Source: an alpha proteobacterium SCGC AAA536-G10 (GTDB lineage: Bacteria; Pseudomonadota; Alphaproteobacteria; Puniceispirillales; Marisalimonadaceae). From it: 63,328 nt of DNA. Shown here in pieces: positions 1 to 21,552 of the stretch (positions are counted from its first letter, which is position 1; the number at the start of each line of letters is the position of its first letter). Under the pieces are notes generated by a model. That model was not told the DNA's origin. It searched no databases and was given only the letters and a program-made list of their open reading frames with translations. Position numbers and translations under genes: made by a program. Location: the NCBI GenBank assembly GCA_000384615.1, contig ARQU01000006.1:1-63328 (forward strand). Direction: 5' to 3'.

Positions 1-1086
1 TTTTTTTTGTAGCATCAATAGTGCTCCAATCATTGCAGGAACACCTGTTGTGTATGAAACTGCTTGACTTCCAACTTCATCGTAGCAATCTTCGTGATTA
101 CATATATTATAAGTATAAAATGTTTTTTCTATATTATTTTTTCTACCAGTAATAATAGTACCAATACATGTTTTACCCTTTGTTGTTTCCCCAAGACTAC
201 CAGGATCTGGAAGAACGGTTTTTAAAAATTGTAATGGAACTATCTCTACTCCATTATAATTTATTGGCACAATTGATGTCATCCCAATATTTTCAAGTAC
301 TTCAAGATGCTTTAAATAGTTGTCGCCAAAAGTCATCCAAAACCTAGCTCTTTTTATTTCTGGAAAATGTTTGATAAGACTCTCTAATTCTTCGTGATAC
401 ATCAGATACATATTCTTATGACCAATTTCAGGAAAATTAAATGATACTTTATTTTTTAGGGCAGGACCAATTTTCCATTGTTTATCTTCCCAGTATTTAC
501 TATTAGATGTTACTTCTCTAATATTGATTTCGGGATTAAAGTTTGTTGCAAATGGATGGCCATGATCTCCATCATTGCAGTCTAGAATGTCTAAACTATT
601 TATACAATCAAGATAATGTTTTTTCGTATAAGCAGTAAAAACGTTAGTTACGCCAGGATCAAAGCCAGATCCTAAAAGTGCCATAATTCCTTTTTCTTCA
701 AAACTTTTCATATAATTCCATTGCCACTTATATTCAAATTTTGCTTCATCTTTTGGCTCATAATTGGCTGTGTCCAAATAATGTGTTTTTGTAATAAGAC
801 AAGCATCCATGATATTAAGGTCTTGATAAGGAAGTGCTAGATTGACTACTAAAAAGGGTTTAAATTTTTTGATTATAGAGACAGTTTCATTAACGTTATC
901 AGCATCTAATTCTAAAATTGTAATATTGACTTTATATTTTGTTTTCACACTGTTTTTAATTTTTAAGCATTTATCCAAAGTTCTACTGGCTAAAATTATG
1001 TTAGTAAAAACTTTTGAAAGTCTTGCCATTTTGTGAATAGTTACATGACTTACACCGCCTGCACCAATAACTAAAACACTTTGCAT
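1..1086 (-). CDS. Carboxynorspermidine/carboxyspermidine synthase, 3' end cut by window edge
   Basis: Condenses putrescine (or diaminopropane) with aspartate semialdehyde in an NADPH-dependent step, giving the substrate for NspC. The protein begins MQSVLVIGAGGVSHV, a Rossmann nucleotide-binding loop, followed by saccharopine dehydrogenase-family sequence including GSGFDPGVTNVF (around residue 145) and a late TTGVPAMIGALLML segment. 362 codons are present without a stop; family members run to about 400, so roughly 40 residues are missing beyond position 1. It lies 28 bp downstream of speA on the same strand, so the two are probably co-transcribed. A fragment at 9627-9737 encodes exactly the kind of C-terminus missing here. 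Family assignment is firm; diaminopropane versus putrescine preference cannot be told from sequence. Confidence 0.9.
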   Translation of the reverse strand, partial: MQSVLVIGAGGVSHVTIHKMARLSKVFTNIILASRTLDKCLKIKNSVKTKYKVNITILELDADNVNETVSIIKKFKPFLVVNLALPYQDLNIMDACLITKTHYLDTANYEPKDEAKFEYKWQWNYMKSFEEKGIMALLGSGFDPGVTNVFTAYTKKHYLDCINSLDILDCNDGDHGHPFATNFNPEINIREVTSNSKYWEDKQWKIGPALKNKVSFNFPEIGHKNMYLMYHEELESLIKHFPEIKRARFWMTFGDNYLKHLEVLENIGMTSIVPINYNGVEIVPLQFLKTVLPDPGSLGETTKGKTCIGTIITGRKNNIEKTFYTYNICNHEDCYDEVGSQAVSYTTGVPAMIGALLMLQKK

Positions 1087-1114
1087 TTAAATCTCCTAAA
1101 ATTTTAGCAATTTA

Positions 1115-2992
1115 TTATTTTTCAAAATAGGTGTAACCAGATATTGATTCTTTAAAAGATTGAATCAATTGCTTCCTCTCAGTTAAGGATAATTCTCTAC
1201 TTCTAACGGCATCTTCCACTATACGCTTAAATCTATTTATAATATCTTTTGGTTCATACTCAACATACGATAATACTTCAGAAATAGTGTCACCTTCTTG
1301 TTCATGCAATAGCTGATAATTACCATTTTCTTTTAATTTTATTGTAACTACATTTGTATCACCAAACAAATTATGAAGGTCACCTAAAGTTTCTTGATAT
1401 GCGCCTATATAAAATACACCTAAAAAATAATCTTCATTATCTTTAATACTGTGAAGTGGTAAAGTGTTTGAAACACCATCTTTCAGAACAAATTTATTTA
1501 TAATTCCGTCGCTGTCACAAGTAATGTCATTTAATATAACTCTTCTGTCAGGATATTCATGATGTTTTTGTATTGGGGCTATTGGATGAATTTGATCTAT
1601 AGCCCAAACATCTGGAAGACTTTGGAATAATGAAAAGTTGCCGTGATAAATATCTGCCATATTATCAATCGAATCTTGAAGTTCTTCGGTTATTTCTGTT
1701 GATGAGGAAAGGACCGTCTTAATTTTGTTTATAACATATAAATAGGTTTCCTCAGTCTTAGCCATATTAGGTAGATCGATTTGACCACTTCTGAAAAGTG
1801 CTCTTATCTCGTCTCTATAATAGTTTAGATCATTCAAACATTCTTGTGCTCTTTCTAAACCTAGATAATCAGGAATTTGGATCATATTTTTGAGTAAAGG
1901 ATGATCCTCTTCATTGATTATTTGAGTTTTTTTACTATCAAAGTTAGTTGTTTCTAAAATATTGAAAATAAGCATTGAGCTAGACGCTATACAAGCTCTG
2001 CCAGATTCAGTTATTATTGTTGGGTGAGCTATTTTGGATTGGTCAAGTTCATATTTAACTGTCTCTACTATATTTGTACAATATTCATCCAGGGAATAAT
2101 TTATAGAGTTAAAAGCAGATTTTTGTTCTCCAGTATAATCCACTCCTAAACCTCCACCAAGATCTAAATAGGTTAATAGCGCACCAAGTTTACTCATTTC
2201 AGAAAAAAATCTACACGCTTCTTGAGTTGCTTTTCTTATCTCAATTATATCTGGTATCTGACTTCCAAGGTGTGAATGTTGTAAAATTAAGCAATCAAGG
2301 TAATCATATATTTTTAACTTATTTATAACTTCCATAACTTGTTCAACAGATAATCCAAATGCACTTCGATCGCCACTTGACTGTGACCAATTACCGCTAA
2401 CTTTATTAGTTAATTTCACCCTAATTCCAAGCAATGGACGGACGTTTAGTTCTTTTGAAATTTTAATTATAAGATCAAGTTCTCTTGGGCTTTCTAAAAC
2501 TAAAATTGTCTTAAAACCAATTTTTATCGATAAAATTGCAAGATGAATAAATTCTCTATCCTTTATTCCATTACAAATTATTGTAGAGTTGGCTGATAGA
2601 TCATGCGCTAAAGCTATTAATAATTCTGGTTTGGAACCAACTTCTAAACCAAAATCAAATTCTTTACCGAACTCAACTATTCTATCAATTACTTGAGCTT
2701 GTTGATTTACTTTTACAGGAAAAACACCTTTATATTCACCTTTGTATCTTATTTCTTTAATTGCTCTAAAAAAAGAGTTGTTAATTTGTTTTATTCTAAA
2801 TGCTAAGTAATCTGTAACTCTCAATAAAACTGGGCAACTTATTCCTCTTTCATTCAGACTTTTGATAATTTTGATCAAGTCCGCTGGAGAATTATCTGGA
2901 TTAAATGGATTTTTTAGCCCAATATTTCCATTCTCAAGTATTTCAAGAATGTCATTGCCCCATTTTTTTATTCCATAAACATCATCATTCAT
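1115..2992 (-). CDS. speA: Biosynthetic arginine decarboxylase
   Basis: PLP-dependent decarboxylation of arginine to agmatine, first step of putrescine synthesis. 625 aa, slightly shorter than E. coli SpeA (about 658). The PLP lysine is in the N-terminal barrel motif GVFPVKVNQQ (about K94). Other family marks are GLEVGSKPEL, the glycine-rich LDLGGGLGVDY, the ESGRA motif, and the C-terminal TCDSDG, which carries the catalytic cysteine donated to the active site. The ATG at 2992 is the natural start. Divergent from msrA across 116 bp, with the carboxynorspermidine synthase immediately downstream. Together with speB at 10.9 kb this gives the agmatine route to putrescine. Confidence 0.96.
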   Translation of the reverse strand: MNDDVYGIKKWGNDILEILENGNIGLKNPFNPDNSPADLIKIIKSLNERGISCPVLLRVTDYLAFRIKQINNSFFRAIKEIRYKGEYKGVFPVKVNQQAQVIDRIVEFGKEFDFGLEVGSKPELLIALAHDLSANSTIICNGIKDREFIHLAILSIKIGFKTILVLESPRELDLIIKISKELNVRPLLGIRVKLTNKVSGNWSQSSGDRSAFGLSVEQVMEVINKLKIYDYLDCLILQHSHLGSQIPDIIEIRKATQEACRFFSEMSKLGALLTYLDLGGGLGVDYTGEQKSAFNSINYSLDEYCTNIVETVKYELDQSKIAHPTIITESGRACIASSSMLIFNILETTNFDSKKTQIINEEDHPLLKNMIQIPDYLGLERAQECLNDLNYYRDEIRALFRSGQIDLPNMAKTEETYLYVINKIKTVLSSSTEITEELQDSIDNMADIYHGNFSLFQSLPDVWAIDQIHPIAPIQKHHEYPDRRVILNDITCDSDGIINKFVLKDGVSNTLPLHSIKDNEDYFLGVFYIGAYQETLGDLHNLFGDTNVVTIKLKENGNYQLLHEQEGDTISEVLSYVEYEPKDIINRFKRIVEDAVRSRELSLTERKQLIQSFKESISGYTYFEK

Positions 2993-3108
2993 ACTAAATT
3001 AACCTAAATTATTTAATAGTTTGATTATATTGCCATATAGAATTGGTCAAGTTATGGTTTAAATAAAATATGATTTCTATAATATAAACATTCAAAAAAG
3101 AGGGTCGT

Positions 3109-3738
3109 ATGTTTTTTTCTAAATATAAAAATGAAGTAATAGATAAGAGTAACGCGCTTGTAGGGAGAGATAATCCTCTCATTGATAAATTATTTCATGA
3201 GATAAATGGACGTGACCTTATGCATGTTCCAAAAGGTTTCTGTGAAATTGTTCTTGGCATGGGTTGTTTTTGGGGCGCTGAAAAAATTTTTTGGAATCTT
3301 CAAGGAGTATATCACACATCAGTAGGTTATGCGGGTGGTCATACTAAAAATCCAACCTATGAAGAGGTATGCAGTGGTTTAACTGGTCATACCGAGGTAG
3401 TAAGAGTAGTATATGATCCAAATAAAATAACCATAAAAAAAGTTTTAATTTATTTTTGGGAAGGACATGACCCAACTCAAGGAATGAGACAAGGTAATGA
3501 TATAGGTACACAGTATAGATCCGCAATTTTTATCAAAAATAAAGAGGATTTGGTTGAAGTTAAAAATACAATGACAGAATTTCAAAATTTATTAGATATA
3601 GGAGGTTTAAAAAATATTACTACAGAAATAAAGAGTGATATAGAATATTATTTTGCTGAAATTTATCATCAACAATACTTGCATAAGAATCCAAATGGGT
3701 ATTGTGGCCTAGGTGGTTGTGGAATAAAATTTAAATAA
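3109..3738 (+). CDS. msrA: Peptide-methionine (S)-S-oxide reductase
   Basis: Reduces methionine-S-sulfoxide in oxidised proteins and uses thioredoxin for recycling. 209 aa. The catalytic signature GMGCFWGAEKIFW has its cysteine at about residue 53; resolving cysteines lie in the glycine-rich C-terminus NGYCGLGGCG. Also visible are the family motifs VGYAGG, GHTEVVRVVYDP, HDPTQGMRQGNDIGTQYRS and HQQYL. An N-terminal extension of about 45 residues is typical of the long MsrA form. Preceded by a good ribosome site (AGAGGG) 6-7 bases before the ATG. Transcribed divergently from speA. Confidence 0.97.
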   Translation: MFFSKYKNEVIDKSNALVGRDNPLIDKLFHEINGRDLMHVPKGFCEIVLGMGCFWGAEKIFWNLQGVYHTSVGYAGGHTKNPTYEEVCSGLTGHTEVVRVVYDPNKITIKKVLIYFWEGHDPTQGMRQGNDIGTQYRSAIFIKNKEDLVEVKNTMTEFQNLLDIGGLKNITTEIKSDIEYYFAEIYHQQYLHKNPNGYCGLGGCGIKFK

Positions 3739-3820
3739 ACCTCTTTGTTTTCTATAATACGCCTTGACCTAATTTGTTTCGTAATATATTTAAGATTAAT
3801 AATTATTTATGGTGCAAATT

Positions 3821-3946
3821 ATGAAAGTTGTAAGTTCTTTAAAAACATTAAAAGTACGAGATAGAAACTGTCAAATTGTTAAACGTAGGGGTCGTTTGTA
3901 CGTAATAAATAAAAGAAATCCTAGATTTAAAGCTCGTCAAGGTTAA
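3821..3946 (+). CDS. rpmJ: 50S ribosomal protein L36
   Basis: 41-residue basic protein beginning [20 protein letters not shown] and ending NPRFKARQG, the longer L36 type common in alphaproteobacteria. The usual zinc ligands are largely missing (only one cysteine, C18), so this is the zinc-independent 'C-minus' form. A monocistronic small gene between msrA and the tartrate dehydratase gene. Recognised from the sequence with high confidence. Confidence 0.95.
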
Positions 3947-4034
3947 TCAATCCTTACTATTACTTATTTTTTTTAAATTACTTTAAACTTTTTTAACTCT
4001 TCTACAATTAAATTCTTTAATAAAGGATTGAATA

Positions 4035-5201
4035 ATGAAGATAACAAAAGTTATAGAAGAAACTAAATCTATTAGTTCTAATATAAAGAATGCATATATC
4101 GATTTTTCTAAAATGACAATAAGTCTAGTAGCTGTTTGTTCTGATATTAAAAGAAATGGTAAGCCCTTAATTGGATATGGTTTTAACTCTAACGGAAGAT
4201 ATGGTCAAGGGCATCTTATTAGAGACAGGTTTTTTCCACGCCTACTAGAAGCTAATTCTAAAGAAATATTAAATGAGGAAGAAACTAATTTCGATCCTAT
4301 AAAAATGTGGGATATTATGATGAAAAATGAAAAACCTGGTGGTCATGGAGAGCGTTCAGTTGCTGTTGGAACAATAGATATGGCAATTTGGGACCTTGTT
4401 TCTAAAATTGAAAAAAAACCATTATTTCAGATGCTTGCTGAAAAGTATGGAAATGGAACAGTTAATAGAAAAGTATTTGTTTATGCAGCTGGTGGATATT
4501 ACTGGCCTGATCAAGGTATACAAGGTTTAACTGATGAGATGAAAAAATATCTAGATCTTGGTTACTCAGTCGTTAAAAAGAAAATTGGTGGTGCATCTTT
4601 GTCTGAGGATTGTGCAAGGATAGAAGCAGTCTTAAAAGTTTTAGGCCCCAATGACAAACTTGCAGTTGATGCTAATGGAAAATTTGATCTTCAAACAGCT
4701 ATTAAGTATGGAAAAGCACTTTCAAACTATGACTTGTTTTGGTACGAGGAACCAGGAGACCCATTAGATTTTGAGCTTCATAAGCAGCTAGGAAATTTTT
4801 ATTCGGGCTCATTAGCCACGGGTGAAAATTTATTTTCTGTTTATGATGCTAGAAACCTAATCCGGTATGCTGGAATGAGAAAAGAAAAAGACTGGCTGCA
4901 ATTTGACTGTGCATTAAGTTATGGATTAGTTGAGTACTTGAAAATAATTAAAATGCTTAAAGAATATAATTGGGACATTTCAAGATGTATTCCACATGGT
5001 GGTCATCAAATGTCCTTAGCAATAGCGGCTGGTTTAGGCTTAGGAGGTAATGAAAGTTACCCTGATCTTTTCCAACCTTATGGTGGTTTTCCTGATGGAG
5101 TAAAAGTTGAAAATAGTATTGTTACTTTACCAGAAATTGAGGGTATTGGATTTGAAGGTAAGTCTGATCTTTATTCAATAATGAAAAATATGACTACATA
5201 A
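4035..5201 (+). CDS. tarD: D(-)-tartrate dehydratase, enolase superfamily
   Basis: Mg2+-dependent dehydration of D-tartrate to oxaloacetate. 388 aa, matching the characterised Bradyrhizobium enzyme in length. Catalytic layout of the enolase superfamily is visible: the KxK base motif in VVKKKIGG (K181/K183), metal ligands in VDANG (D212), WYEEPGDP (E238) and ATGENLF (E264), and the second base in RCIPHGGHQMS (H321/H324). Long stretches such as NAYIDF, GYGFNSNGRYGQGHLIR, NEKPGGHGERSVAVGTIDMA and NESYPDLFQPYGGFPDGV match TarD as remembered and are unlike other mandelate racemase subgroups. Convergent with the class I fumarase gene (11-bp gap). Substrate is inferred from family resemblance. Confidence 0.88.
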   Translation: MKITKVIEETKSISSNIKNAYIDFSKMTISLVAVCSDIKRNGKPLIGYGFNSNGRYGQGHLIRDRFFPRLLEANSKEILNEEETNFDPIKMWDIMMKNEKPGGHGERSVAVGTIDMAIWDLVSKIEKKPLFQMLAEKYGNGTVNRKVFVYAAGGYYWPDQGIQGLTDEMKKYLDLGYSVVKKKIGGASLSEDCARIEAVLKVLGPNDKLAVDANGKFDLQTAIKYGKALSNYDLFWYEEPGDPLDFELHKQLGNFYSGSLATGENLFSVYDARNLIRYAGMRKEKDWLQFDCALSYGLVEYLKIIKMLKEYNWDISRCIPHGGHQMSLAIAAGLGLGGNESYPDLFQPYGGFPDGVKVENSIVTLPEIEGIGFEGKSDLYSIMKNMTT

Positions 5202-5212
5202 AATTATATTTT

Positions 5213-6823
5213 TTAAATTTTAAAAAAATCATTTCCTTTATTATCTATGACTACAAATGCAGGAAATTTTTCAACTTCAATCTTCCATACGGCTTCCATG
5301 CCTAACTCAGGATATTCTAATACTTCTATCTTCTTTATGCAATCAAGAGCAACTTTGGCTGCAGTTCCTCCAATAGTACCAAGATAAAACCCACCATATT
5401 TATGACAAGCCTCTCTTACTTGTGAAGATCTATTCCCTTTTGCCAGCATAACCATTGAACCACCATTTTTTTGAAATTCATCAACATATCCATCCATTCG
5501 TCCAGCAGTAGTTGGTCCAAAAGAGCCAGAAGCCATTCCCTTAGGTGTTTTAGCTGGGCCCGCATAATATACAGGATGATCTTTAATATAATCAGGTAAA
5601 GAACCATCATTTTTAAGTCTATCAAGTAGCTTTGCGTGAGCTATGTCTCTCGCAACGATAAGTGGGCCAGTAAGACTTACTCTTTTTTTCACTTCACACT
5701 CATCTAGTTGTTTCAAAATATTTTTCATAGGTTGGTTTAAATCAATGTTTGTGACTTCTTCAGAAACATCATTAATATTAATATCAGGCATGAATTGACT
5801 TGGATCAGTTTCCAATTTTTCAAGAAAAATTCCATGCTTGTTAATTTTACCTAATATTTGTCTGTCAGCTGAACAAGAGACACCAATTCCAATGGGAAGA
5901 GAGGCTCCATGTCTTGGAAGTCTTATTACTCTTACGTCGTGACAAAAATATTTACCTCCAAATTGAGCACCTATACCCATTTCACGTGTTAAATCTAAAA
6001 TTATTTTTTCCCATTTATCGTCTCTATATGCGTGACCAGATTTATAATCGCCTTGATTGGGCAAATTATCTAAATAGCGCATAGAACCAAGCTTGACTGT
6101 TTTTAGATTTAGTTCAGCTGAAGTTCCACCAATAACTATAGATAAATGATAAGGCGGGCAAGCGGCAGTTCCTAAAGAAATAATTTTTTCATAGAGAAAA
6201 TTTTTTAAATTTTCATGATTTAAAGTTGCAGGTGTTGCTTGAAATAAAAAGCTCTTATTAGCTGATCCACCCCCTTTTTGAACGAATGCAAATTTGTATT
6301 CATTTCCTTCTGAAGCAAATAAACTAATTTCAGCGGGTAAGTTATTTGCCGTATTTTTTTCTTCAAACATTGAAAAAGGTGCTAATTGTGAAAACCGTAA
6401 ATTATTTTCTTGATAAGTATTATAAACACCTAATGATAAGTATTTTCCATCATCTGTATTCGTAAAAACTTTTTCACCCTTATAGCCTATTATAATAGCC
6501 GTGCCAGTATCTTGACACATTGGAAGAATGCCCGAAGATGATATATTTGCATTTTTTAACATAGTTAAGGCCACAAAGTGGTCATTGTCAGAGGCTCCTT
6601 CATCTTCAAGTATGTCTTTTAATTGTTGCAAATGAGATTTTCTTAATAAGTGAGACACGTCTTTAAAGGCCCTTTGGGAGAGTAAAGTTAGGGCTTTAGG
6701 TTCTATTGTTAAAATTTCTATATTATTTATTAGAGAGGTCTTAACATAAGAGTCCGATAATTTGATGTATTCAGTATTGTCTTTTAAAAGTGGAAACATT
6801 GGTGAATAATTAAATTCGTTCAA
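5213..6823 (-). CDS. Class I fumarate hydratase (4Fe-4S)
   Basis: Converts fumarate and malate in the TCA cycle, using an oxygen-sensitive [4Fe-4S] cluster. 536 aa, the single-chain class I length with alpha domain then beta domain. Cluster cysteines are visible at about C103 (PMCQDTGTA), C222 ([10 protein letters not shown]) and C317 (GVSCSADRQ). Further family motifs are [19 protein letters not shown] and, in the swivelling C-terminal part, [23 protein letters not shown]. Lies 28 bp downstream of sspB on the same strand. Class I enzymes include L-tartrate dehydratases, but the single fused polypeptide and full cluster set favour fumarase. Confidence 0.93.
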
Positions 6824-6851
6824 AAAAATCTCCTATTTCAGATAATAATAT

Positions 6852-7367
6852 TTATTTTTTATCTCTGAACTCATTAAGAGAAATAATTTCTCCAGATTCA
6901 GTTTCGTTTGTCTGTTTTGTTTGTTCTTTTTTATTTTCTAATACAATATTTTCATCTTTCTTTTCTTCATTAGGGATTATTTTTTTTTCTTCAACTTTAA
7001 ATTGTAGACCAAATCCTACTGAAGGATCAGTAAAAGATGTTATTGCTTTATAAGGAACGTAAATATTTTTCTTTTGACCATTAAAAGATAAAGTCACCTC
7101 AAAATGTTCGTCAGTTGCTTTTAAATCCCAAAACTGATGTTGAATAATTATCTTAATTTCAGAACTGTCAGTACTTTTTAATTCATCTGGGACAATAACT
7201 TCATTATCATTTCCATTAAAAGAAATAAAAAAATGACTATTTCCTACAAGACCAGATTCAGCTGTAATTTTTAATACTTTCTTAACTACACTTTTAAGGC
7301 TTTCTTCTACTAAATCATCATAATTAAAACCCTTAATGTTTAGTGTACCATCATCGTTATTATTCAC
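6852..7367 (-). CDS. sspB: SspB-type ClpXP adaptor (alphaproteobacterial)
   Basis: Adaptor that binds the ssrA tag and hands tagged proteins to ClpXP. 171 aa. An N-terminal helix (FNYDDLVEESLKSVVKKVLK) is followed by a beta-rich SspB fold with HFFISFNG, PDELK, IIIQHQFWDL and VPYKAITSFTDPSVGFGLQF. The last 45 residues are charged linker ending in GEIISLNEFRDKK, fitting the disordered tail plus ClpX-binding peptide of SspB proteins. It sits directly downstream of the tmRNA gene on the same strand, linking the tag maker and the tag reader. The fumarase gene follows. Confidence 0.88.
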   Translation of the reverse strand: MNNNDDGTLNIKGFNYDDLVEESLKSVVKKVLKITAESGLVGNSHFFISFNGNDNEVIVPDELKSTDSSEIKIIIQHQFWDLKATDEHFEVTLSFNGQKKNIYVPYKAITSFTDPSVGFGLQFKVEEKKIIPNEEKKDENIVLENKKEQTKQTNETESGEIISLNEFRDKK

Positions 7368-7445
7368 TGAAATATATCCTAAAAGTTTTTTATGTATTCT
7401 ACATTTCTAAATGTAACTTTTTCAAGATAAATTTGGAAATTACCC

Positions 7446-7476
7446 AGATAAAATGGCGAGAAGTAAACTTCTCGCC
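7446..7476 (-). terminator. Hairpin at the 3' end of ssrA
   Basis: A perfect nine-pair stem GGCGAGAAG/CTTCTCGCC with a four-base loop spans 7455-7476. On the minus strand it is followed by ATTTTATC, a weak T tract. It could be the rho-independent terminator of ssrA or the 3' boundary stem of the coding piece. Confidence 0.55.
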
Positions 7477-7740
7477 ACCCAAGTTTTTCTGTTGCCAGGT
7501 AAACTGAAACCCCGCCAATTCTAGCTATAGAATTAGACTAAGTTTCGGTTGCTTTGGCTGCTTACGCTGCTGCAGCTACCGGAGCATAGTTGTCATTTGC
7601 AACTATTATAGTAGTCCGATAACGGTGGTACAATACCGAGTGAAAGTTTGATTTTTACTACATGCGTCGATCCTATTTCGCCCCCATATATATATGGTGG
7701 AGGCGCCGGGTACCGCCCCCGGGTCCGCTAAGCTTATTCT
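7455..7740 (-). ncRNA. ssrA: Circularly permuted tmRNA (two-piece ssrA)
   Basis: Read on the minus strand, the acceptor piece comes first. It has a T-arm of five base pairs (CCGGG...CCCGG) around the loop GGCGGTA and ends CGCCTCCACCA at 7695. A 9-base AT spacer (7686-7694) follows, then the 5' piece starting GGGGGCGAAATAGGATCGACG at 7685. GGGGGCG pairs with CGCCTCC to form the seven-pair acceptor stem, so the mature 3' end precedes the mature 5' end in the gene. This permutation is typical of alphaproteobacteria. The GGATCGACG block matches the conserved tmRNA 5' region. Outer ends are approximate; the mature RNA is expected to be two pieces. Confidence 0.95.
7562..7600 (-). other. tmRNA tag-peptide reading frame
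   Basis: Resume codon GCA at 7600-7598 opens a short frame encoding ANDNYAPVAAAA and a TAA stop at 7564-7562. The ANDNYA start is the usual alphaproteobacterial tag, but the tail is a run of alanines in place of the more common LAA or VAA. The AND(N)Y part is the expected adaptor-binding region and the terminal alanines are the expected ClpX degron. Confidence 0.93.
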
Positions 7741-7855
7741 AAAAAATGTTTATCACTATAGTCATTAAAATGACTTTTTTAGTATACATTATTTATTTTT
7801 TTTATTAAAGACCACATTAAGAAAGTTTTAAAATATTATAGGTTGAGATATTTGA

Positions 7856-8650
7856 ATGAAGCAATATTTAGATTTGTTAGACTACGTATTAAAACATGGA
7901 AATGTAAAGGAAGATAGAACTGGAACGGGTACCAAATCTGTCTTTGGTTGGCAAATGCGTTTTGATTTAAACAAAGGATTTCCTTTGCTTACTACAAAAA
8001 AACTGCATTTAAGGTCAATTATACATGAACTTTTGTGGTTTATAAGAGGTGATACAAATATATCTTATTTAAAAGACAACAATGTGTCGATATGGGATGA
8101 TTGGGCTGACGAAAATGGGGATCTTGGACCTGTATATGGTAAACAATGGAGAAGATGGAGTACACCTGAAGGAAGGAAGCTTGACCAATTATATGATGTG
8201 ATTAGTGAGATTAAGAATAATCCAAATTCAAGAAGAATGATTGTGTCGGCTTGGAATCCTTCAGATGTAGGGTCTATGGCATTGCCACCTTGCCATTGTC
8301 TTTTTCAATTTTATGTAGCTGACAATAAATTATCTTGTCAGTTATATCAAAGGAGTGCAGATATTTTTCTTGGCGTTCCATTTAATATAGCATCCTACGC
8401 AATTTTAACGCATATGATAGCAAATGTATGTGATATATCAGTTGGTGATTTTGTGCATACTTTGGGGGATGCTCATTTATATAAAAATCATTTTGAACAA
8501 GCTAAAAAACAGTTATCAAGATCAATAAAAAATAAACCACAAATAAAACTTTTGAAAAAACATACTAATATAAATGATTTTGTTTTTGAAGATATTGAAA
8601 TTATTAATTATGATCCACATCCTCATATTTCTGCTCCGATAGCCGTATAA
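7856..8650 (+). CDS. thyA: Thymidylate synthase
   Basis: Makes dTMP from dUMP with methylene-tetrahydrofolate as carbon donor and reductant. 264 aa, the E. coli ThyA length. Signatures seen: [11 protein letters not shown] (phosphate-binding arginine region), [40 protein letters not shown], the catalytic cysteine in [19 protein letters not shown], and the C-terminal APIAV closing segment. Its stop codon abuts the folA start codon (TAAATG), so the two are translationally coupled and the dihydrofolate product is recycled by the next gene. Confidence 0.98.
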
Positions 8651-9199
8651 ATGATAAGAAAAAAAGATTTAAAAAATCCTATTGTTTGTATTGTTGCTAT
8701 GAATCAAAATAGAGTTATTGGAGATGGTAATGATTTACTCTGGCATTTGCCTGGTGATTTAAAAAGATTAAAAACAATCACAATGGGTACACCTTTGATA
8801 ATGGGAAGAAAAACTTGGGACTCAATTGGTAGGCCTTTACCTGGAAGAGCAAGCATAGTTCTGACTAAATCTGTTTCTTGGAAGGCGGATGGAGCAATTG
8901 TAGCAAATTCTTTCGAGAATGCTATCACAGAGGCCAATATTTGGATTGAGGCCAATAAAAAAATGGGAAATAAAGCCATACAAAATAAAATATTTTTATT
9001 CGGTGGAGCCCAAATATATGAGATTGGATTAGAGTATTGTGATACTATTGAAATGACAAAGGTAAACTTTTGTGCAGTATCAGGATCGAAGTTTCCAAGA
9101 TTGAAAGAAAATGATTGGAAAAAAACAAAACTTGAAGATTTTGAAGCAACTAGTAATTCACCTGAGTTTAGTTATTGGCATTATAGTAGGATTATTTAA
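8651..9199 (+). CDS. folA: Dihydrofolate reductase
   Basis: Regenerates tetrahydrofolate from the dihydrofolate released by ThyA. 182 aa, slightly longer than E. coli FolA. Motifs: IVAMNQNRVIGDGNDLLWHLPGDLKR (Met20-loop region and W-H-L-P-x-D active site), MGRKTWDSIGRPLPGR (NADPH site), IFLFGGAQIYE (second dinucleotide motif). It begins immediately at the thyA stop and is the last gene before the convergent mrp fragment. Confidence 0.97.
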   Translation: MIRKKDLKNPIVCIVAMNQNRVIGDGNDLLWHLPGDLKRLKTITMGTPLIMGRKTWDSIGRPLPGRASIVLTKSVSWKADGAIVANSFENAITEANIWIEANKKMGNKAIQNKIFLFGGAQIYEIGLEYCDTIEMTKVNFCAVSGSKFPRLKENDWKKTKLEDFEATSNSPEFSYWHYSRII

Positions 9200-9205
9200 A
9201 GATGA

Positions 9206-9631
9206 TTATTGAATGATTCTTGGACTAGGTCTTTCACTTAGTTCTATTGTATTTATTATTTGAGATCCGATCTCCATATATTTTTGTGAAATAATGCTGT
9301 GTGGTTCTTTATGTACAATTGGATTTCCATCATCAGATGATGTTCTTAAGCTTATATCAAGAGGAATTTCATTTAAAAAAGGGACACCTAATTTTTCAGC
9401 TTCAGCTTTTGCTCCACCATTTCCAAAAATTTCATGTTTAGTGTCGCAGTTAGTACATTGGAAATAGCTCATATTTTCAATTATACCTAAAATGGGAACA
9501 TTCACTTTTTTAAACATGTTTAGACCTTTTCGAGCATCTATTAATGACAAATCTTGGGGAGTGGAAACAATTATTGCACCTGCCAATTTTACTCTTTGAG
9601 AAAGTGTTAATTGAGCATCACCAGTTCCTGG
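9206..9631 (-). pseudogene. 3' part of Mrp/ApbC P-loop Fe-S carrier, 5' part missing
   Basis: Encodes the C-terminal 141 residues of an Mrp/NBP35 ATPase (iron-sulfur cluster carrier). Seen are PGTGDAQLTLSQRVKLAG, the VSTPQDLSLIDARKG switch region, GIIENMSYFQC and the paired cysteines C-x2-C in YFQCTNCDTKHEIFG, followed by ENP-type GNPIV and the C-terminal tail. The Walker A half and the N-terminal domain are absent. Homology ends abruptly at 9631, where the residue before PGTGD is threonine in place of the invariant proline and the sequence becomes the 3' end of a different gene on the other strand. The break is a junction, not gradual decay, and may be an assembly artefact. Confidence 0.85.
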
Positions 9632-9737
9632 AGTATGGAATATAGAACAGTTTAACCCAGATCCATTTATGGAACTTCTTAATCAACATGGATTACCCAC
9701 TAAAACTATTCAATTAAACGATAGTCTGAATTTTTAG
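9627..9737 (+). pseudogene. C-terminal fragment of carboxynorspermidine synthase
   Basis: In frame from 9627: PGVWNIEQFNPDPFMELLNQ, then HGLPTKTIQLNDSLNF and TAG. The NPDPF(ME)xLxxHGLP ending is the standard C-terminus of carboxynorspermidine synthase, and it sits 8 bp before nspC, its usual operon partner. Nothing upstream of 9627 continues the protein; the sequence is mrp on the opposite strand. The 362 codons at 1-1086 lack exactly this tail. Read as the severed end of that gene. Confidence 0.85.
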
Positions 9738-9745: not shown

Positions 9746-10919
9746 ATGTTACAAACAATGGGTGGAAACCCTAAAAATTTTAAAAAACTTAATTTGAAAA
9801 GATTACCAAGTCCATGCTTTGTAATAGACAAAATAGCATTACAAAATAACTTGGAAATTTTATTTGAACTTAAAAAAGAAACAAACTTAAAAATTCTAAT
9901 TGCTTTGAAAGCTTTTTCAACTTTTTCACTTGCAGACTTAATATCAGAATATTTAGATGGTTCATGTTGTTCAGGTTTATATGAAGCAAAGTTGGCAAAT
10001 AAATATTTTAAAGGGGAAATCAGCACATATTCACCTGCATTTAAAAAAGATGAATTTGATGAAATTTCTAAAATATCTGATCATATTATTTTTAATTTCA
10101 TTTAATCAAATGAATACTTTTTATGATATTTCTAAAAAATTTAATAATGAAGTTGGGATAAGAATTAACCCACTCTATTCAGAAGTTGAAATTAATAAGT
10201 ATAGTTCTGCGGGAATTAGTTCTCGTTTAGGTGTGCATTTAAAAGATTTAATTAATTACGATATAGATAAAATTGATGGAATTCATTTTCATTCATTATG
10301 CGAACAAAACTTTAAACCCTTAGAAAATACATGGAATGAATTAAAAAATTCACTTGCACCTTTAATTCCCAATATAAAATGGATAAATTTAGGTGGTGGA
10401 CACCATATCACAAGAAAAGATTATCAGCTTAATGAACTAAAATATTTTTTGAAGCAAGTTTCTAACGAGACAAATTGCCAAATATATATTGAACCTGGAG
10501 AAGCAGTAGTTTTAGATAGTGGTATTTTAGTTGGAGAAATACTCGATTTTTTTAAACCTAGCAATCCACTATCTCCAAATATTGCGATTACAGATATAAG
10601 TGCTACATCACACATTCCAGACGTAATTGAAGCACCATATAGACCTGCCCTTCTTAACGAACCAGATAATGGACATAAAATTATTTTGGGAGGACCTAGT
10701 TGTCTAGCTGTTGATATAATTGGTGAATATAATTTTACTGATATTCCAAAAATAGGCGAAAGGGTAGCCCTGCTAGATCAAGCACATTATACTATGGTAA
10801 AAACTAGTTTTTTTAATGGTGTAAAATTGCCATCTATAGCAATTTGGGACAGTAAAACAGACAATTTAGAAATTGTTAAAAGCTTTTCATTTAAAGACTT
10901 TGAAAATAGATTATCATAA
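9746..10919 (+). CDS. nspC: Carboxynorspermidine decarboxylase, frame broken once
   Basis: PLP-dependent decarboxylation of carboxyspermidine to spermidine. Two frames together give about 385 residues, close to the family length. The first frame (9746 to about 10100) carries SPCFVIDK and the PLP lysine in ILIALKAFSTFS. The second (about 10100 to 10919) carries VGIRINP, SRLGVH, GIHFHSLCEQN, INLGGGHHIT, EPGEAVVL and the C-terminal GPSCLAVD and MVKTSFFNGV. The shift falls in AATTTCATTT near 10098: removing one T restores HIIFNSFNQMNTFY. The rest of both frames is well preserved, so this is a recent one-base insertion or a homopolymer sequencing error. The next gene, speB, follows 13 bp later. 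Confidence 0.88.
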
Positions 10920-10932
10920 AAGCATATCAATT

Positions 10933-11811
10933 ATGGATAATAAAAATAATCACTTTTTAAACTCAGAGCTTTCTATAGAAGAAAAAAATAAAGATAAAGC
11001 TAAATTTCATATAGTGCCAGTCCCGTTAGAAAAAACCGTGTCTTATGGTAAAGGTACCTCTAAGGGGCCTCAAGCCATTATTAAAGCAAGTAATGAATTA
11101 GAACGGTACACTGGTAAAAGCTTACCATGCATCCACGGGATACACACTCATCCTTTTTTAAATTGCAATAAACCATTAAAGGACATTATGAGTGACATTG
11201 AAAATATTACTAAAAAAATAAGCAAGCAAAACAAAATACCCGTCACATTAGGCGGTGAACATGGAATTACTTATGGTGCAGTTAACGGTATTTTCAAGGG
11301 ATTAAATTTACATAACAAAGATGATATTGGAATAATACAAATTGATGCTCATGCTGATTTGAGACAAAATTATGAAAATGAAGTCCATTCACATGCTAGT
11401 GTAATGTATCTTCTTGGTAACGAAAATTATAAAATTGCACAATTTGGAGTGCGTGCCTTAAGTGAAGAAGAAGTTGAAAATAGAAAAATTTTCAAAGTTT
11501 TATTTTTGGATGCGCAAGATATTTATTATAAAAAGAAATTTATATTACCTTTAAATTTTCCAAAAAAAATATATGTATCATTTGATGTAGACGGATTAGA
11601 TCCCTCTGTAATGCCAGCAACAGGCACACCTGTTCCAGGAGGGTTAGGATATTATGAAAGCCTAAATTTAATCAAAGAACTTATTAAAGGCCGAAAAGTT
11701 ATAGGTTTTGACGTTGTCGAATTCTCTCCAATAAAAAATTTTATTGCTTATGATTTCACAGTAGCTTCTTTGGTATATGAAATAATGGAATTAATAAATC
11801 TAAACAGCTAA
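10933..11811 (+). CDS. speB: Agmatinase (arginase/ureohydrolase family)
   Basis: Hydrolyses agmatine to putrescine and urea, the step after SpeA. 292 aa from the ATG at 10933; the frame is open further upstream, but that part overlaps nspC and has no family resemblance. Binuclear manganese ligands are in GGEHGITYG, QIDAHADLR and SFDVDGLDPS, with VEFSPI near the end. Directly downstream of nspC, so the four polyamine genes would form one operon if the 9.63-kb junction were undone. Arginase is the alternative, but the presence of speA favours agmatinase. Confidence 0.9.
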   Translation: MDNKNNHFLNSELSIEEKNKDKAKFHIVPVPLEKTVSYGKGTSKGPQAIIKASNELERYTGKSLPCIHGIHTHPFLNCNKPLKDIMSDIENITKKISKQNKIPVTLGGEHGITYGAVNGIFKGLNLHNKDDIGIIQIDAHADLRQNYENEVHSHASVMYLLGNENYKIAQFGVRALSEEEVENRKIFKVLFLDAQDIYYKKKFILPLNFPKKIYVSFDVDGLDPSVMPATGTPVPGGLGYYESLNLIKELIKGRKVIGFDVVEFSPIKNFIAYDFTVASLVYEIMELINLNS

Positions 11812-12750: not shown

Positions 12751-13625
12751 CCTAAAACTCTTTGTCCTTTAAAAACTATTGTTCTTTTACCATTCAAAAA
12801 AACTCTATTTTCCGAATGAGCTTTTAACGCTCTATACAAAACTCTCGCTTCAATGTCTCTTCCCATTAAAACTAAATCATTAGGCATCATCTCATGGTCA
12901 ACTTCTTGGGTGTCCTGTTCAATTATAGGCCCTTCATCCAATTCTTTTGTAACATAATGAGCTGTTGCACCAATAACTTTTACTCCTCTTTCATATGCCT
13001 GATGATAGGGTTTTGCTCCTTTAAAACTAGGCAAAAAACTATGGTGAATGTTTATAATCTTTCCTTCAAATTCATTTGTAAAATCTTCGGAAAGCACTTG
13101 CATATACCTAGCTAGTACTATTAATTGTATGTCATTATTATATAAAATTTCTTTAATCTTAACTTCTTGATCTTCTTTGTTTGTTTTGTTAATAGGCAAA
13201 AAATAAAAAGGTATTTTGGAAAATCTAGCAATATCTTGAGCAATTTTATGATTTGAAATAATTGCTTTAACATTTAAGTTTAGAGAGTTACTTCTTATTC
13301 GAAAAAGAAGATCATTTAAGCAGTGATCAAATTTTGAAACCATTATTATCGTATCCATGGAACTTTCAATTTCACCTAGGAAAAATTCTGCATTTAATTC
13401 CTTTGATAACAAATTTAAATTATACTCTAATTTTGCTAATGTATTTGAATCATGAAGTGTAAAACTTTGCCTAATAAAAAAATTTCCATTTTGTTGGTCT
13501 GTAAATTGTTTAGACTCGACAATATTACATCTAGAATTTGCTAGTAGTGTAGAAATTTTTGAAACAATTCCCACTTGGTCTCTACAGGATAATTTTAAAA
13601 TATGTGTTTCAATTTTATTCATCAT
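12747..13625 (-). CDS. purU: Formyltetrahydrofolate deformylase
   Basis: Hydrolyses 10-formyl-THF to THF and formate, balancing one-carbon pools. 292 aa. An N-terminal ACT domain (LKLSCRDQVGIVSKISTLLA, about residues 8-85) precedes a formyltransferase-fold domain with NIHHSFLPSFKGAKPYHQAY, GVKVIGATAHYVTKELDEGP and IIEQD. The ACT domain separates it from PurN. Two adjacent ATGs (13625 and 13622) are both possible. Translationally coupled to trxB. Confidence 0.95.
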   Translation of the reverse strand: MMNKIETHILKLSCRDQVGIVSKISTLLANSRCNIVESKQFTDQQNGNFFIRQSFTLHDSNTLAKLEYNLNLLSKELNAEFFLGEIESSMDTIIMVSKFDHCLNDLLFRIRSNSLNLNVKAIISNHKIAQDIARFSKIPFYFLPINKTNKEDQEVKIKEILYNNDIQLIVLARYMQVLSEDFTNEFEGKIINIHHSFLPSFKGAKPYHQAYERGVKVIGATAHYVTKELDEGPIIEQDTQEVDHEMMPNDLVLMGRDIEARVLYRALKAHSENRVFLNGKRTIVFKGQRVLG

Positions 13626-13670: not shown

Positions 13671-14501
13671 CTAATCTTTTAGAAATTTTTTTGAAACCTC
13701 ATAAAATTCATCAGGGTTTTCAATATGTAAAAAATGTCCTACATTTTTAATTTTATGAAATATAACGTTTGAAAAAAAATTTTTAAAAATTTGAAAATCA
13801 TTGTCATTAACATAATCACTTTTTTCTCCATAAATACATAATGATTTTGTATCAGTTTTATTATTTTTATCAATTTTAGGAAATGATCGTAAATCATTCA
13901 TTGCTTTTTTTATTGCAGTCAAATTTATTGTCCATTTATATTTTCTATCACCAAGTTTTATGTTCTGTAACAAAAAAGACCTTAAAAATTTTGGTTCGAT
14001 TTCGTTTGAAAGTAACTCATCTGCATGATTTCTATTTCTAACTAAATTTAGATCTAAATTAAACAATGCGTTAATTATATTTTGATTATCATTGGGATAA
14101 TTAATTGGAGCAATATCAGCTATAATTAATTTATTTATGCAGTGCGGTGTTAATAAGGTAATTAACATTGCTAATTTCCCACCCATTGAGTGACCTAACA
14201 AGTTAGTTTTTTTTATTTTAAGATAATTGAATAATTGAATAATATCTTCCATCATTAAAGTGTAGGACATATCTTCCTTAAAGATATTCGCTCCATGATT
14301 TCTTAGATCAACTGTAATAACCGTAATCTTTTCATTCTCACTCATTTTTTTTGCAAAAGATTGCCAGTTTTTTCCTCTACCATAAAGACCATGAAAAATA
14401 AATAATGTGTTACTCTTCTCTAAATTAAATAATTTAGTGTTTTCTTTAAATCTAATTATTCTTCCACTTTTGTATAGTTCAAAATTAATCATGTTAATCA
14501 C
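13671..14501 (-). CDS. Alpha/beta-fold hydrolase (YbfF-like esterase)
   Basis: 276 aa single-domain alpha/beta hydrolase. Oxyanion-loop region FIFHGLYGRGKNWQSFAKKM, a VDLRNHG motif, nucleophile elbow GHSMGGKLAM (serine about residue 100), and the C-terminal catalytic histidine in NVGHFLHIENPDEF. This pattern matches small cytosolic esterases of the YbfF group, usually of unknown physiological substrate. In same-strand order it lies 45 bp before purU. A signal peptide is not seen. Confidence 0.85.
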   Translation of the reverse strand: MINMINFELYKSGRIIRFKENTKLFNLEKSNTLFIFHGLYGRGKNWQSFAKKMSENEKITVITVDLRNHGANIFKEDMSYTLMMEDIIQLFNYLKIKKTNLLGHSMGGKLAMLITLLTPHCINKLIIADIAPINYPNDNQNIINALFNLDLNLVRNRNHADELLSNEIEPKFLRSFLLQNIKLGDRKYKWTINLTAIKKAMNDLRSFPKIDKNNKTDTKSLCIYGEKSDYVNDNDFQIFKNFFSNVIFHKIKNVGHFLHIENPDEFYEVSKKFLKD

Positions 14502-14590
14502 TTTGTAAATTTTGGAATAAGAATTTAAAATTATGAAAATTCTGCCGTAAAGTACATTATAATTTTAATAATAACTGGATAGGTTTAAAA

Positions 14591-14863
14591 ATGGGTCAAG
14601 TGGTTAAATTAAACTTTTCAAATATAAATAATAATGGAAATAAGATTTATGAACATAAAGTTTATGAAGAAAAATTAATTAGAATTAGGGACGATATAGA
14701 GGATTATCTTTGTAATGTGTCTATTAATGAAAATGATGAACTTGCCGTTGCCCTAGCTGCTGGAAGATATGCTAGTATGAAGCTTACACAATTAAATGGC
14801 GAATTTGATACAAAAAAATTTTTTTTTGACTGTATTAAAACAACATTAAATAATAAAAGTTAA
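14591..14863 (+). CDS. Conserved-looking small protein, function unknown
   Basis: 90 aa, soluble, no signal peptide or membrane segment. Starts MGQVVKLNFSNINNNG and contains a mixed helical region (EEKLIRIRDDIEDYL, ELAVALAAGRYASMKLTQLNG). A GGATAGG ribosome site lies 8 bases upstream. Divergent from the hydrolase and convergent with the bactofilins. The AAGRYASMKL stretch looks conserved, but I do not recognise a family. Confidence 0.7.
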   Translation: MGQVVKLNFSNINNNGNKIYEHKVYEEKLIRIRDDIEDYLCNVSINENDELAVALAAGRYASMKLTQLNGEFDTKKFFFDCIKTTLNNKS

Positions 14864-14878
14864 GACTTATTAAATTAT

Positions 14879-15193
14879 TTATGAAATCCTAGTTATGCTT
14901 CCTGATACTTCTGCACCAAGATCAATTGAAAGTGCATTAGTTTTCAAATTACCTTCAACTTTAGCGCTGCTAGCTACATTCAATGTGTTAGCAGCAACTT
15001 CACCTTTAACTAAACCACCCAAAGTAACTTTGTCAGCAACTAGATTACCGTCAAATATGCTATTAGCCTCAAGTAGAACATCTTTCGCCCTTAACTCTCC
15101 TTTAAATCTTCCAGCTACAACTACAGATGAACCAGCTGAGTCAAGGTCACCTTCCATTACTAATTCTTCCGATATATATGTAATTTCACTCAT
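14879..15193 (-). CDS. Bactofilin (third of three)
   Basis: Beta-helical cytoskeletal polymer subunit. 104 aa, made almost entirely of the bactofilin repeat core: VMEGDLDSAGSSVVVAGRFKGELRAKDVLLE, then successive turns spaced about 16-18 residues (DGNLVADKVTLGGLVKGEV, AANTLNVASSAKVEGNLKT). No long tails. Last in a three-gene bactofilin set on the minus strand. Confidence 0.88.
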   Translation of the reverse strand: MSEITYISEELVMEGDLDSAGSSVVVAGRFKGELRAKDVLLEANSIFDGNLVADKVTLGGLVKGEVAANTLNVASSAKVEGNLKTNALSIDLGAEVSGSITRIS

Positions 15194-15224
15194 AATAAAC
15201 CCTTATAACAAATCTTGATTAATT

Positions 15225-15611
15225 TTAATTTGATTGCTCATCCTGAGCAACTTCCTGGTTTTCTTGTGTTTCATTTTCATTATCTACGTCAGTTTTGTTC
15301 CAATTATGGACAACTCTACAATTTAAAGCCGCTCCTCTATCCATTTGTAAAGATTTATAATGAACTTCACCACTTATACGAGATGTTTCTGTTAGCCAAA
15401 CACTATCAGCTTGCATTTTACCCTCATATTCTCCAGCTATTACAACTAGTTCAGAATCTACTGCACCAAGAAACTTTCCAGAGGAACCAATTGTTACTTT
15501 TTCAGTTGTCAAATCTGCTTCAACGTATCCATTAATCTCTATTGATTTTGCATTTGAAATTTTTCCACTAAAACGGGCTCCTGATCCTAAAACTGCTTGT
15601 TTGTTAGCCAT
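15225..15611 (-). CDS. Bactofilin (second of three)
   Basis: 128 aa. Central bactofilin domain (ARFSGKISNAKSIEINGYVEADLTTEKVTIG onwards, through GEVHYKSLQMDRGA) with an acidic, glutamine-rich tail of about 25 residues. Shares the right-handed beta-helix repeat rhythm with its neighbours but not the same tails, so the copies probably have distinct roles or co-assemble. Spaced 31 bp from the downstream copy and 12 bp from the upstream one, consistent with one transcript. Confidence 0.88.
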   Translation of the reverse strand: MANKQAVLGSGARFSGKISNAKSIEINGYVEADLTTEKVTIGSSGKFLGAVDSELVVIAGEYEGKMQADSVWLTETSRISGEVHYKSLQMDRGAALNCRVVHNWNKTDVDNENETQENQEVAQDEQSN

Positions 15612-15623
15612 AAATAATCTCCC

Positions 15624-15968
15624 TTAGTTTTTACTTTTTCTTTTACCAATTTGAGCTTCTACAACAGCTCCTTCTTCAATAGAAATATTTTCATAAAAAA
15701 CTTCACCAGAAATTTTTCCAGTTGATTTTATTGAAATAACATCGCCTGAGACCTGTCCATCGCATTTTCCTGAAACGGTAACTACATCAGCATCTATATT
15801 ACCTTTTAAAGTACCAGTATCTTCAACTGATAAACTATGACACTTTATGTCACCTATAACTGATCCTAGTAATACTAATTCGCCATCTGCAGAAATTTTT
15901 CCTTTTATTTTCATATCTCTTGAAATAATAGATTTTTCAGTTCCCGTTTCGTTTGTTTTTCCTAACAT
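15624..15968 (-). CDS. Bactofilin (first of three)
   Basis: About 114 aa from the ATG at 15968, which has AAAGGA 8 bases upstream; the frame is open back to 16013, but the extra 15 residues (basic, KKRIFKSNSKR) are not family-like. The core reads ISRDMKIKGKISADGELVLLGSVIGDI then repeated turns to GEVFYENISIEEGAVVEAQIG, ending in a basic RKSKN tail. It is the promoter-proximal member and faces the M23 endopeptidase operon across a shared intergenic region (16014-16143). Confidence 0.87.
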   Translation of the reverse strand: MLGKTNETGTEKSIISRDMKIKGKISADGELVLLGSVIGDIKCHSLSVEDTGTLKGNIDADVVTVSGKCDGQVSGDVISIKSTGKISGEVFYENISIEEGAVVEAQIGKRKSKN

Positions 15969-16143
15969 TATGGAAATCCTTTTACTATTTGATTTAAAAA
16001 TTCGTTTCTTCATTAATTATTTTAGTTTATTCTACTACAAATAATCTTAAAATAAAAATTTATTTAAAAAGCACTTATTTGGTATGAATGATGCAAATAA
16101 CTTGCCATAATAGTAAATAAAAAAAAAAATAGAGTTAAATATA

Positions 16144-16518
16144 ATGGCAGAAGAAATTATTGACTTAAGAGATCGTATAGAACAGATGCGTATACAGATT
16201 GAAAATGAGGCTGTAGAACAAACTGCTCAAGATAAACCAATGGAAATTCATCAACAAACTAATAACTCAAATATTTCTTTGTCAATGCAAAGTAATAAAA
16301 ATTATGCGAATCAAAATAATAACAATAAATTTGATCCTAAAGATTCTTTTAATAGTGATAAAGAAATTAATAATTCACGTCTTAGAAAAGAACCATTTCC
16401 AGCTGTCAGCTTATCAGTAAAAAATCCTGTTTCTAGTAAAGTTTTGATATTCATGGTGACATTACAGATTTTATCCAATATAGGGATTCTGTATTTTTTA
16501 TATTTAGGGATGGAGTAG
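16144..16518 (+). CDS. Small membrane-anchored protein, function unknown
   Basis: 124 aa. N-terminal helix (EEIIDLRDRIEQMRIQIENE), a low-complexity Asn/Gln/Ser-rich middle (about residues 40-80), and one C-terminal membrane segment (VLIFMVTLQILSNIGILYFLY), giving a cytoplasmic head with a tail anchor. Six bp before the M23 gene, so likely co-expressed and perhaps a membrane partner between bactofilin and the wall enzyme. Not recognised. Confidence 0.7.
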   Translation: MAEEIIDLRDRIEQMRIQIENEAVEQTAQDKPMEIHQQTNNSNISLSMQSNKNYANQNNNNKFDPKDSFNSDKEINNSRLRKEPFPAVSLSVKNPVSSKVLIFMVTLQILSNIGILYFLYLGME

Positions 16519-16524
16519 TTAGAG

Positions 16525-17880
16525 GTGAATACCACTTTTAACAAATTTGGGAAAAAACTTCCTCCAGTTAAAACAGGTCAACGTTTTGGAGAAGGAGTTA
16601 AAAAAGATAAAAAAGTAGGACTGTTTTCCGAAAGACGGTTTTTAATTTTCACAAAAAAAGGTCCTATAGAAATTGCATTTAAACCAGTTCACTATGCTAG
16701 CGTATTAGTTACTACTATTATCGGCTTAACTAGCATAATTTATTGGTCTGCAAAAGGTATATACTCCGCAATAGATGTAGCAAAAAAAAACGATATAATT
16801 ACCGAAGCTTCGGCCAATATAGACAATAAAATAGAAAATGATTCGGATACTAATGTAGATATTAATATTGAAGACCAATCAAACATAACCCTACCTGTTC
16901 TGAAAAAAACTATTGAAGAAGTTGACCAATTTCAAGTTTATATACCAATTAAAAATAAAAACAAAAATGAAAAAAATTTTACTGAAGAAAATAAATCAAC
17001 TTCAGATTTACAAGATGAAGCAATTTTCAAGACAATAAATGTTACTAATAATTATAATCAAAATATAGATTTATTTAATAAAACTTACAGAAATCAAGAT
17101 CTTCCAAATGAAGCTGTAAATCAATTGATCAATGAGAGTAATATTTTAATATCTGAAAGTTTTAAATCTTACTCAAATGAAAAAAATCAATACCCTCAAC
17201 CTCCCAAACTAAATGATAAGGTGAAAAATTTACGTTTTATTGCTTCTCTTGATAATGAGCTTATACAAATGGAAAATGTGTTTAAAGTTATAAACGTAAA
17301 ATTAAAAAATAATGATTTGGATACAATAGAGACTATACTTAAAAATGATAAAACTATCGACCGAAATAATGACTATTATTTTAGAAGCTTAAAAGCTCGC
17401 CTAAACTTGCTTGCAATTTATAAAGATGCACTTCAAAATTTGCCCTTAAAACCTCCAATGGAACATTACTACGTTTCTAGTCCATATGGCCCAAGAAAAC
17501 ATCCAGTAACTGGTAAATATAGAATGCATCATGGCATAGATTTAGCTGGCACTTGGCAAGAAAATGTTTCAGTTTCTGCAGATGGTACAGTTGTTTTTGC
17601 TGGCTATCATGGATCTTTTGGTAAAGTTATTCGTATCAGACATAACTATGGCATCATGACAACGTACGGTCATTTAGCCAAAATAAACGTAAGAAGTGGA
17701 GACATAGTAAATGAAGGCCAAGTTATAGGCAAAATGGGAAGAACTGGTAAAGTTAAAGGTGCTCATCTTCATTACGAGATTTCTGTAAATGGAAAATCTC
17801 AAAATCCTGCAACTTATATTAAAATAGGTAGAAATCTTCTGAGTAGAACGAGTTTAAAAGGATATGCTATTAAAAAGTAA
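16525..17880 (+). CDS. M23/LytM-family peptidoglycan endopeptidase, membrane-anchored
   Basis: 451 aa. A basic N-terminus is followed by a membrane segment (about residues 53-73, HYASVLVTTIIGLTSIIYWS), a long Asn/Lys-rich linker, a short coiled coil, and a C-terminal LytM domain (about 330-440). Zinc ligands are in MHHGIDLAG (HxxxD) and GAHLHYEIS (HxH), with YGHLAK between. Catalytic residues are all present, so it should cleave cross-links and is not an inactive activator. Start is GTG at 16525. Divergent from three bactofilins: bactofilin plus M23 peptidase is a known cell-shape pairing. Confidence 0.9.
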   Translation: MNTTFNKFGKKLPPVKTGQRFGEGVKKDKKVGLFSERRFLIFTKKGPIEIAFKPVHYASVLVTTIIGLTSIIYWSAKGIYSAIDVAKKNDIITEASANIDNKIENDSDTNVDINIEDQSNITLPVLKKTIEEVDQFQVYIPIKNKNKNEKNFTEENKSTSDLQDEAIFKTINVTNNYNQNIDLFNKTYRNQDLPNEAVNQLINESNILISESFKSYSNEKNQYPQPPKLNDKVKNLRFIASLDNELIQMENVFKVINVKLKNNDLDTIETILKNDKTIDRNNDYYFRSLKARLNLLAIYKDALQNLPLKPPMEHYYVSSPYGPRKHPVTGKYRMHHGIDLAGTWQENVSVSADGTVVFAGYHGSFGKVIRIRHNYGIMTTYGHLAKINVRSGDIVNEGQVIGKMGRTGKVKGAHLHYEISVNGKSQNPATYIKIGRNLLSRTSLKGYAIKK

Positions 17881-17941
17881 ATAATCTCAATAATTTGGCA
17901 TAACTCATGCATTTAAGTAAAATAAATTTGGAGATTAGAAG

Positions 17942-18124
17942 ATGTTAACTCATAAAATTAAGTATTCAAAAACTAAAGTGTCACACCACACAATAAAAAA
18001 ATTAAATGATTGTATTATAAAAATAGACTATTTTGATCAGACAGGCATTAAAAATTTTGAAGAAAATATTCCTTTGAAACATATATTGAATTCAGAAATT
18101 GAATTACCTTTATCTAATGTATAA
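17942..18124 (+). CDS. Hypothetical 60-residue protein
   Basis: 60 aa with a strong ribosome site (TTGGAG) 8 bases before ATG. Basic N-terminus (MLTHKIKYSKTKVSHHTIKK), then mixed hydrophobic and acidic sequence; no membrane segment. Likely genuine because of the ribosome site and intergenic position between the M23 gene and convergent rpoN. Function unknown. Confidence 0.5.
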   Translation: MLTHKIKYSKTKVSHHTIKKLNDCIIKIDYFDQTGIKNFEENIPLKHILNSEIELPLSNV

Positions 18125-18149
18125 TTTTATCATTCTTATTATTCATAGT

Positions 18150-20159: not shown

Positions 20160-20163
20160 TGTT

Positions 20164-21526: not shown

Positions 21527-21552
21527 TAGTTTAGATAGGATTGGATTATATC

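Follow-up and report, generated by a model that had tools for sequence, protein, structure and literature searches.

An inverted junction between mrp and carboxynorspermidine synthase in a SAR116 genome assembly is very probably an amplification chimera

Genes and junction at the locus

The stretch of DNA analysed here (the window, 63,328 nucleotides in full length) is the beginning of the 122,562-bp contig C6 in the source assembly G000 (G000:C6:1-63328), which comprises 2,161,697 bases in 148 contigs and is 90.34% complete with 0.35% contamination. Placement of the window on the assembly contigs showed that its position 1 is a true contig end of C6. This end truncates a minus-strand gene of carboxynorspermidine synthase, of which residues 1-362 are present (1..1086; NF043000 positions 2-369 of 405), and the gene upstream of it on the same strand is speA, encoding a biosynthetic arginine decarboxylase (1115..2992; TIGR01273 and NF003763 above cut-off). 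The 3′ part of mrp, a gene of an iron-sulfur carrier ATPase, occupies 9206..9633 on the minus strand (PF10609 positions 121-245), and its portion at 9206-9586 matches positions 241-351 of 369 of the ApbC/Mrp model. The missing 5′ half of mrp was found on another contig (G000:C19:2-640, minus strand), likewise at a contig end, so that the match to NF008669 (Mrp) is divided between C19 (positions 10-223) and C6 (224-351). The last 36 residues of the synthase lie on the plus strand at 9627..9737 (NF043000 positions 375-404, a weak match with E 0.0006), adjoined on that strand by nspC, the carboxynorspermidine decarboxylase gene, in two frames (9746..10919; TIGR01047 positions 1-98 and 95-380) and by a speB-like agmatinase gene (10933..11811; TIGR01230 above cut-off). 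Taken at face value, this arrangement would suggest that in a SAR116 bacterium two genes are fused and both a polyamine operon and an iron-sulfur carrier are broken.

Alignment to three relatives (G021, G001 and G015) splits the window into two blocks of opposite orientation, one covering 1-9633 and the other running from 9627, which places an inverted junction at 9627..9633. The original prediction had the minus-strand mrp homology stopping at 9631; the strand was right, but the block alignments carry mrp two bases further, to 9633. Its start of the plus-strand synthase tail at 9627 agrees with both the family match and the block alignments, and the proposed CCTGG overlap of the two genes is an exact 5 nt when checked against relatives. 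The junction reads CCTGGAGTATGG in the window. At the corresponding sites, the synthase reads CCTGGTGTATGG in all four nearest relatives, and mrp reads CCTGGAGGCAT in three of the four (G021, G001 and G010) and CCAGGAGGCAT in G015. The homology at the junction therefore amounts to 5 nt exact, or 7 nt with one mismatch. The A at 9632 may derive from mrp, or it may reflect a difference in the synthase of G000 itself. Among 200,000 random draws of inverted joins (0.5-10 kb apart, in the G021 DNA of the junction region), a homology of at least 5 nt occurred in 1.0% and of at least 7 nt in 0.14%.

Tiles compared with the three relatives revealed no step in nucleotide identity at the junction. A cross-strain join at 9.63 kb, arising from mixed cells or strains, was considered and rejected on the grounds of similar identity on both sides: 95.1-96.7% at 9001-9632 and 94.8-95.7% at 10001-11000, with 92.9-94.1% in the first kb of C19. 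A drop in identity to about 80-85% starts near 14 kb, away from the junction. No second copy of the region was found in G000, where a 661-bp junction query, the synthase and the mrp 3′ part were each matched once. Exact matches to the junction were likewise absent from viral_contigs, where host DNA would hardly be expected.

Two minor features lie close by. The nspC gene goes out of frame at window 10096-10098 owing to one additional T in a run of T, as compared with G021, G001 and G015 (three of three compared); the extra base may reflect either a real mutation or an error of sequencing or amplification. A tmRNA gene with the tag ANDNYAPVAAAA was detected by ARAGORN at window 7471-7791 (minus strand) and marked with an asterisk, which we take to denote a permuted, two-piece gene.

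Gene order in relatives and other inverted joins

In the three relatives the same pieces stand in a different arrangement: C6 from 9627 onward comes first, reverse-complemented, and is separated by 9 bp from C6 1-9633, which C19 follows from its base 1 without a gap. The 9 bp, which in G021 read TCTTAACCA, separate the head of the synthase from its tail, in line with the earlier proposal that the 5′ part at 1-1086 ends just short of where the tail begins. It follows from this alignment that G000 contains one inverted join, the loose ends of which are two contig ends, located 9 bp and 0 bp from the breakpoints. The order postulated for the unflipped state (speA, synthase, nspC and speB on one strand) is the one seen in relatives, with mrp intact. 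An assembly break at the breakpoint, also anticipated, is borne out by window position 1 being a contig end that in relatives would lie 9 bp from the tail. On the other hand, the cut in mrp does not sit at the opposite end of the flipped segment within one contig, as had been suggested: the sequence sought to the left of position 1 is not there, since C6 ends at that point, and the mrp 5′ half opens C19 instead. Family searches found the reciprocal join on no contig of G000, with the mrp 5′ half only at the C19 end and the synthase head only at the C6 end.

Both genes are whole in relatives. The synthase is present in 18 of 24 genus relatives, in all 18 within frames of 401-438 aa (versus 362 aa, open-ended, here), and had no match in 16 genomes from other families of the order. 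Frames of mrp orthologues span 355-380 aa in 16 genus relatives, versus 158 aa here. To a 601-bp query across the junction, surveyed in 40 genus genomes including G000, none of the 39 others gave a spanning match (33 gave some match), and the half alignments break around query positions 297-303. Both halves were found in 25 relatives and on the same contig in 22; in 21 of these 22 the halves are on opposite strands, 9561-11038 bp apart (9.6 kb in G021, G001 and G015).

The single exception is G041, in which (on contig C46) the stretch equivalent to ∼33.6-46.3 kb of G021 C6 is inverted. Its breakpoints, at about 33575 and 46232 on G021 C6, differ from those of G000. A reverse overlap of this contig's start with its own interior was predicted in advance and then found: the first 100 bases of G041:C46 match positions 12766-12865 in reverse with 99% identity. 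We therefore rejected G041 as an independent case of the G000 inversion; its different breakpoints and the overlapping contig start support an artefact there too, rather than a recurrent inversion at the sites used in G000. A mandelate-racemase-like frame is altered at the inverted join of G041.

A census of inverted joins, which compared 921,005 of the 2,161,697 bases of G000 with 1,642,689 bases of G021, yielded counts that are lower bounds, as only part of G000 was covered. Further inverted joins were located in C2 (190179-190185), C5 (3056-3063), C11 (16680-16686) and C1 (between 10033 and 10290), although which of the two genomes is rearranged at the C1 join is less certain because G021's own contig comes to an end nearby. 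Five of 28 true contig ends examined in G000 (the left ends of C1, C4, C5 and C11 and the right end of C2) overlap their own contig's interior in inverted orientation over 95-103 bp by BLAST; the overlap is put at 93-98 bp for the five, with exact values of 95 in C1, C4 and C5 and 93 in C11. A 95-bp match also links the left end of C3 to the join in C11. None of 21 contig ends examined in the sister genome G021 shows an inverted end-to-interior overlap. End overlaps of this kind imply, from the topology of such a graph, that at the joins with an overlap of ∼95 bp both the old and the inverted connection are present in the data. Among the matches listed for the same 40 genus genomes, no relative spans the C5 or the C11 join. 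Exact homology at the other joins is 8 nt in C5, 2 nt in C11 and 4 nt in C2 (the last by eye), and thus varies between joins. The sequence continuing beyond two of the other joins was sought in G000 and not recovered within the 1.2-1.3 kb queried.

The C6 junction resembles the joins at the ends of C1, C2, C4, C5 and C11 and in G041:C46 in being an inverted join to nearby sequence with a contig end across the loop. It differs in that those ends carry 93-100 bp of inverted interior overlap, whereas the two loose ends of the present join are flush (9 bp at C6 and 0 bp at C19). The assembly therefore holds no direct sign of the unflipped connection at this junction. A fixed-length end trim as the cause of the flush ends appears unlikely, as overlaps of ∼95 bp were left at other ends. 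The simple test of whether a contig end overlaps its own interior in reverse catches many such joins, but not the junction in C6.

A further discontinuity in this assembly was observed at G000:C3:165707-165709 (the L195-L196 region), where adjoining blocks, overlapping by 3 bp, match G021 C4 near 3782 and C15 near 7544; it is either a contig join or another chimera.

Origin of the junction

Almost certainly, the organism itself does not carry this junction. We are highly confident that it is an artefact of some kind and, only slightly less firmly, that it arose as an amplification chimera and became fixed in the assembly. A chimera accounts for the orientation of the join (inverted), its short homology and its uniqueness, as well as for the contig ends at both breakpoints and the similar joins elsewhere; the flush ends of C6 and C19 remain outside what it explains. 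The original prediction had offered a real inversion or a chimera as alternatives. Of these, the chimera is favored by the lack of the join in any relative, by loose ends that coincide with contig ends and by the other inverted joins, and the inversion gained no positive support.

The proposed course of events starts from a cell with, most likely, the gene order seen in the relatives (speB, nspC, synthase, speA ... folA, mrp) and with both synthase and mrp unbroken. While phi29 was amplifying this DNA, a copied strand in mrp probably became displaced at its 3′ end (...CCTGGAG) and paired there with a displaced strand in the synthase (CCTGGTG), 9.6 kb off; extension along the latter would have produced the inverted join. 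In following this join, the assembler would have been left with the starts of C6 (synthase) and C19 (mrp) as loose ends. MDA as the source, the direction of priming and the unflipped order in this particular cell are what we infer from the comparison. That G000 derives from a single amplified cell is likewise suggested by its relatives and by this signature; the nearest relatives with names include SAR116 single-cell genomes, and some further records named in the same style carry a MAG label from their depositors.

Published chimeras offer a close parallel. According to Lasken and Stockwell (2007; PMC1855051), 406 of 475 single-cell MDA chimeras were inverted, and 337 of the 406 inversions joined sequences <10 kb apart, 93.5% of these with at least 2 nt of complementarity; about one chimera occurred per 22 kb, with numbers declining with distance. 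Another report (PMC4595205) gives an overlap that peaks at 6 nt (mostly 5-8) and a distance peak of 250-300 nt. For 17 SAR116 single-cell genomes, PMC6122165 describes amplification by MDA or WGA-X and assembly by SPAdes in single-cell mode. The G000 junction has inverted parts less than about 10 kb apart (near the upper limit) and a complementarity within 2-21 nt. It is thus like the MDA chimeras described in PMC1855051 in its inverted join, its distance of <10 kb, its short complementarity and the occurrence of several cases per assembly, and unlike them in being found in an assembled contig rather than a read, in its flush ends and in a distance near the upper end; 9.6 kb lies at the far end of published ranges for MDA chimeras.

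Real small inversions at short inverted repeats do occur in bacterial chromosomes. The junction shares with them its orientation and the short inverted match but differs in being present in no relative and in that the reciprocal join is not continuous in the assembly. A real 9.6-kb chromosomal inversion that used short inverted repeats, interrupted mrp and the synthase and lost its reciprocal join in the short gap between C19 and C6 could draw on the inverted match CTCCAGG/CCTGGAG at both sites (one mismatch in relatives), would need a single gap of about 16 bp, and faces no ∼95-bp overlap that flags the junction as ambiguous. We nevertheless regard it as very improbable: it is found in none of 39 relatives, it would disrupt two genes that the relatives examined have intact, and no fewer than four further inverted joins of artefact type lie in this assembly. 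Moreover, both of its breakpoints would coincide with contig ends, which has a probability of about 0.45% by chance (that of a given point in G000 falling within 16 bp of a contig end). The flush loose ends without the 95-bp overlap leave small room for a real inversion, and there is accordingly a slight chance that it is a recent event of this SAR116 lineage at the 5-7 nt inverted match, with the G041 inversion occurring in the same region. In that event, the region would be one prone to inversion, G041 being inverted nearby with other breakpoints.

An inversion segregating in a mixed population (rather than one cell), with both orientations in the sequenced material, would account for a break in the assembly graph at the breakpoints. 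We consider it extremely improbable, as no relative has the flipped form at these sites, identity continues without a step across the join, and the same topology at several unrelated sites fits a process inherent in the method better. If the assembler alone had made a misjoin and no chimeric molecules existed, one wrong join and two loose ends would also result. The homology of 5-7 nt at the junction is far below the ∼95-bp overlap at the other joins, from which we infer that the k-mers across the junction should stem from real chimeric reads, making such a misjoin highly unlikely. Overall, an amplification chimera carries a warning: G000 and at least one relative contain several inverted joins, which mimic gene loss and create spurious gene neighbourhoods close to contig ends.

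Other features of the window

From about 14000 to 29300, the identity of the window to the three relatives is about 78-88%, as compared with 92-97% over most of both flanks, perhaps due to recombination with another lineage. The adjacent 29294-50671, about 21 kb, has no equivalent at the corresponding position of the G021 contig (the flanking matches end at 22211 and 22175), with the exception of 47767-48716, which matches another G021 contig. Ten of the 16 listed ORFs in this segment were scanned; some resemble FkbM methyltransferases, a carbamoyltransferase, a sulfotransferase and DUF4910, and the segment is perhaps a surface-glycan island.
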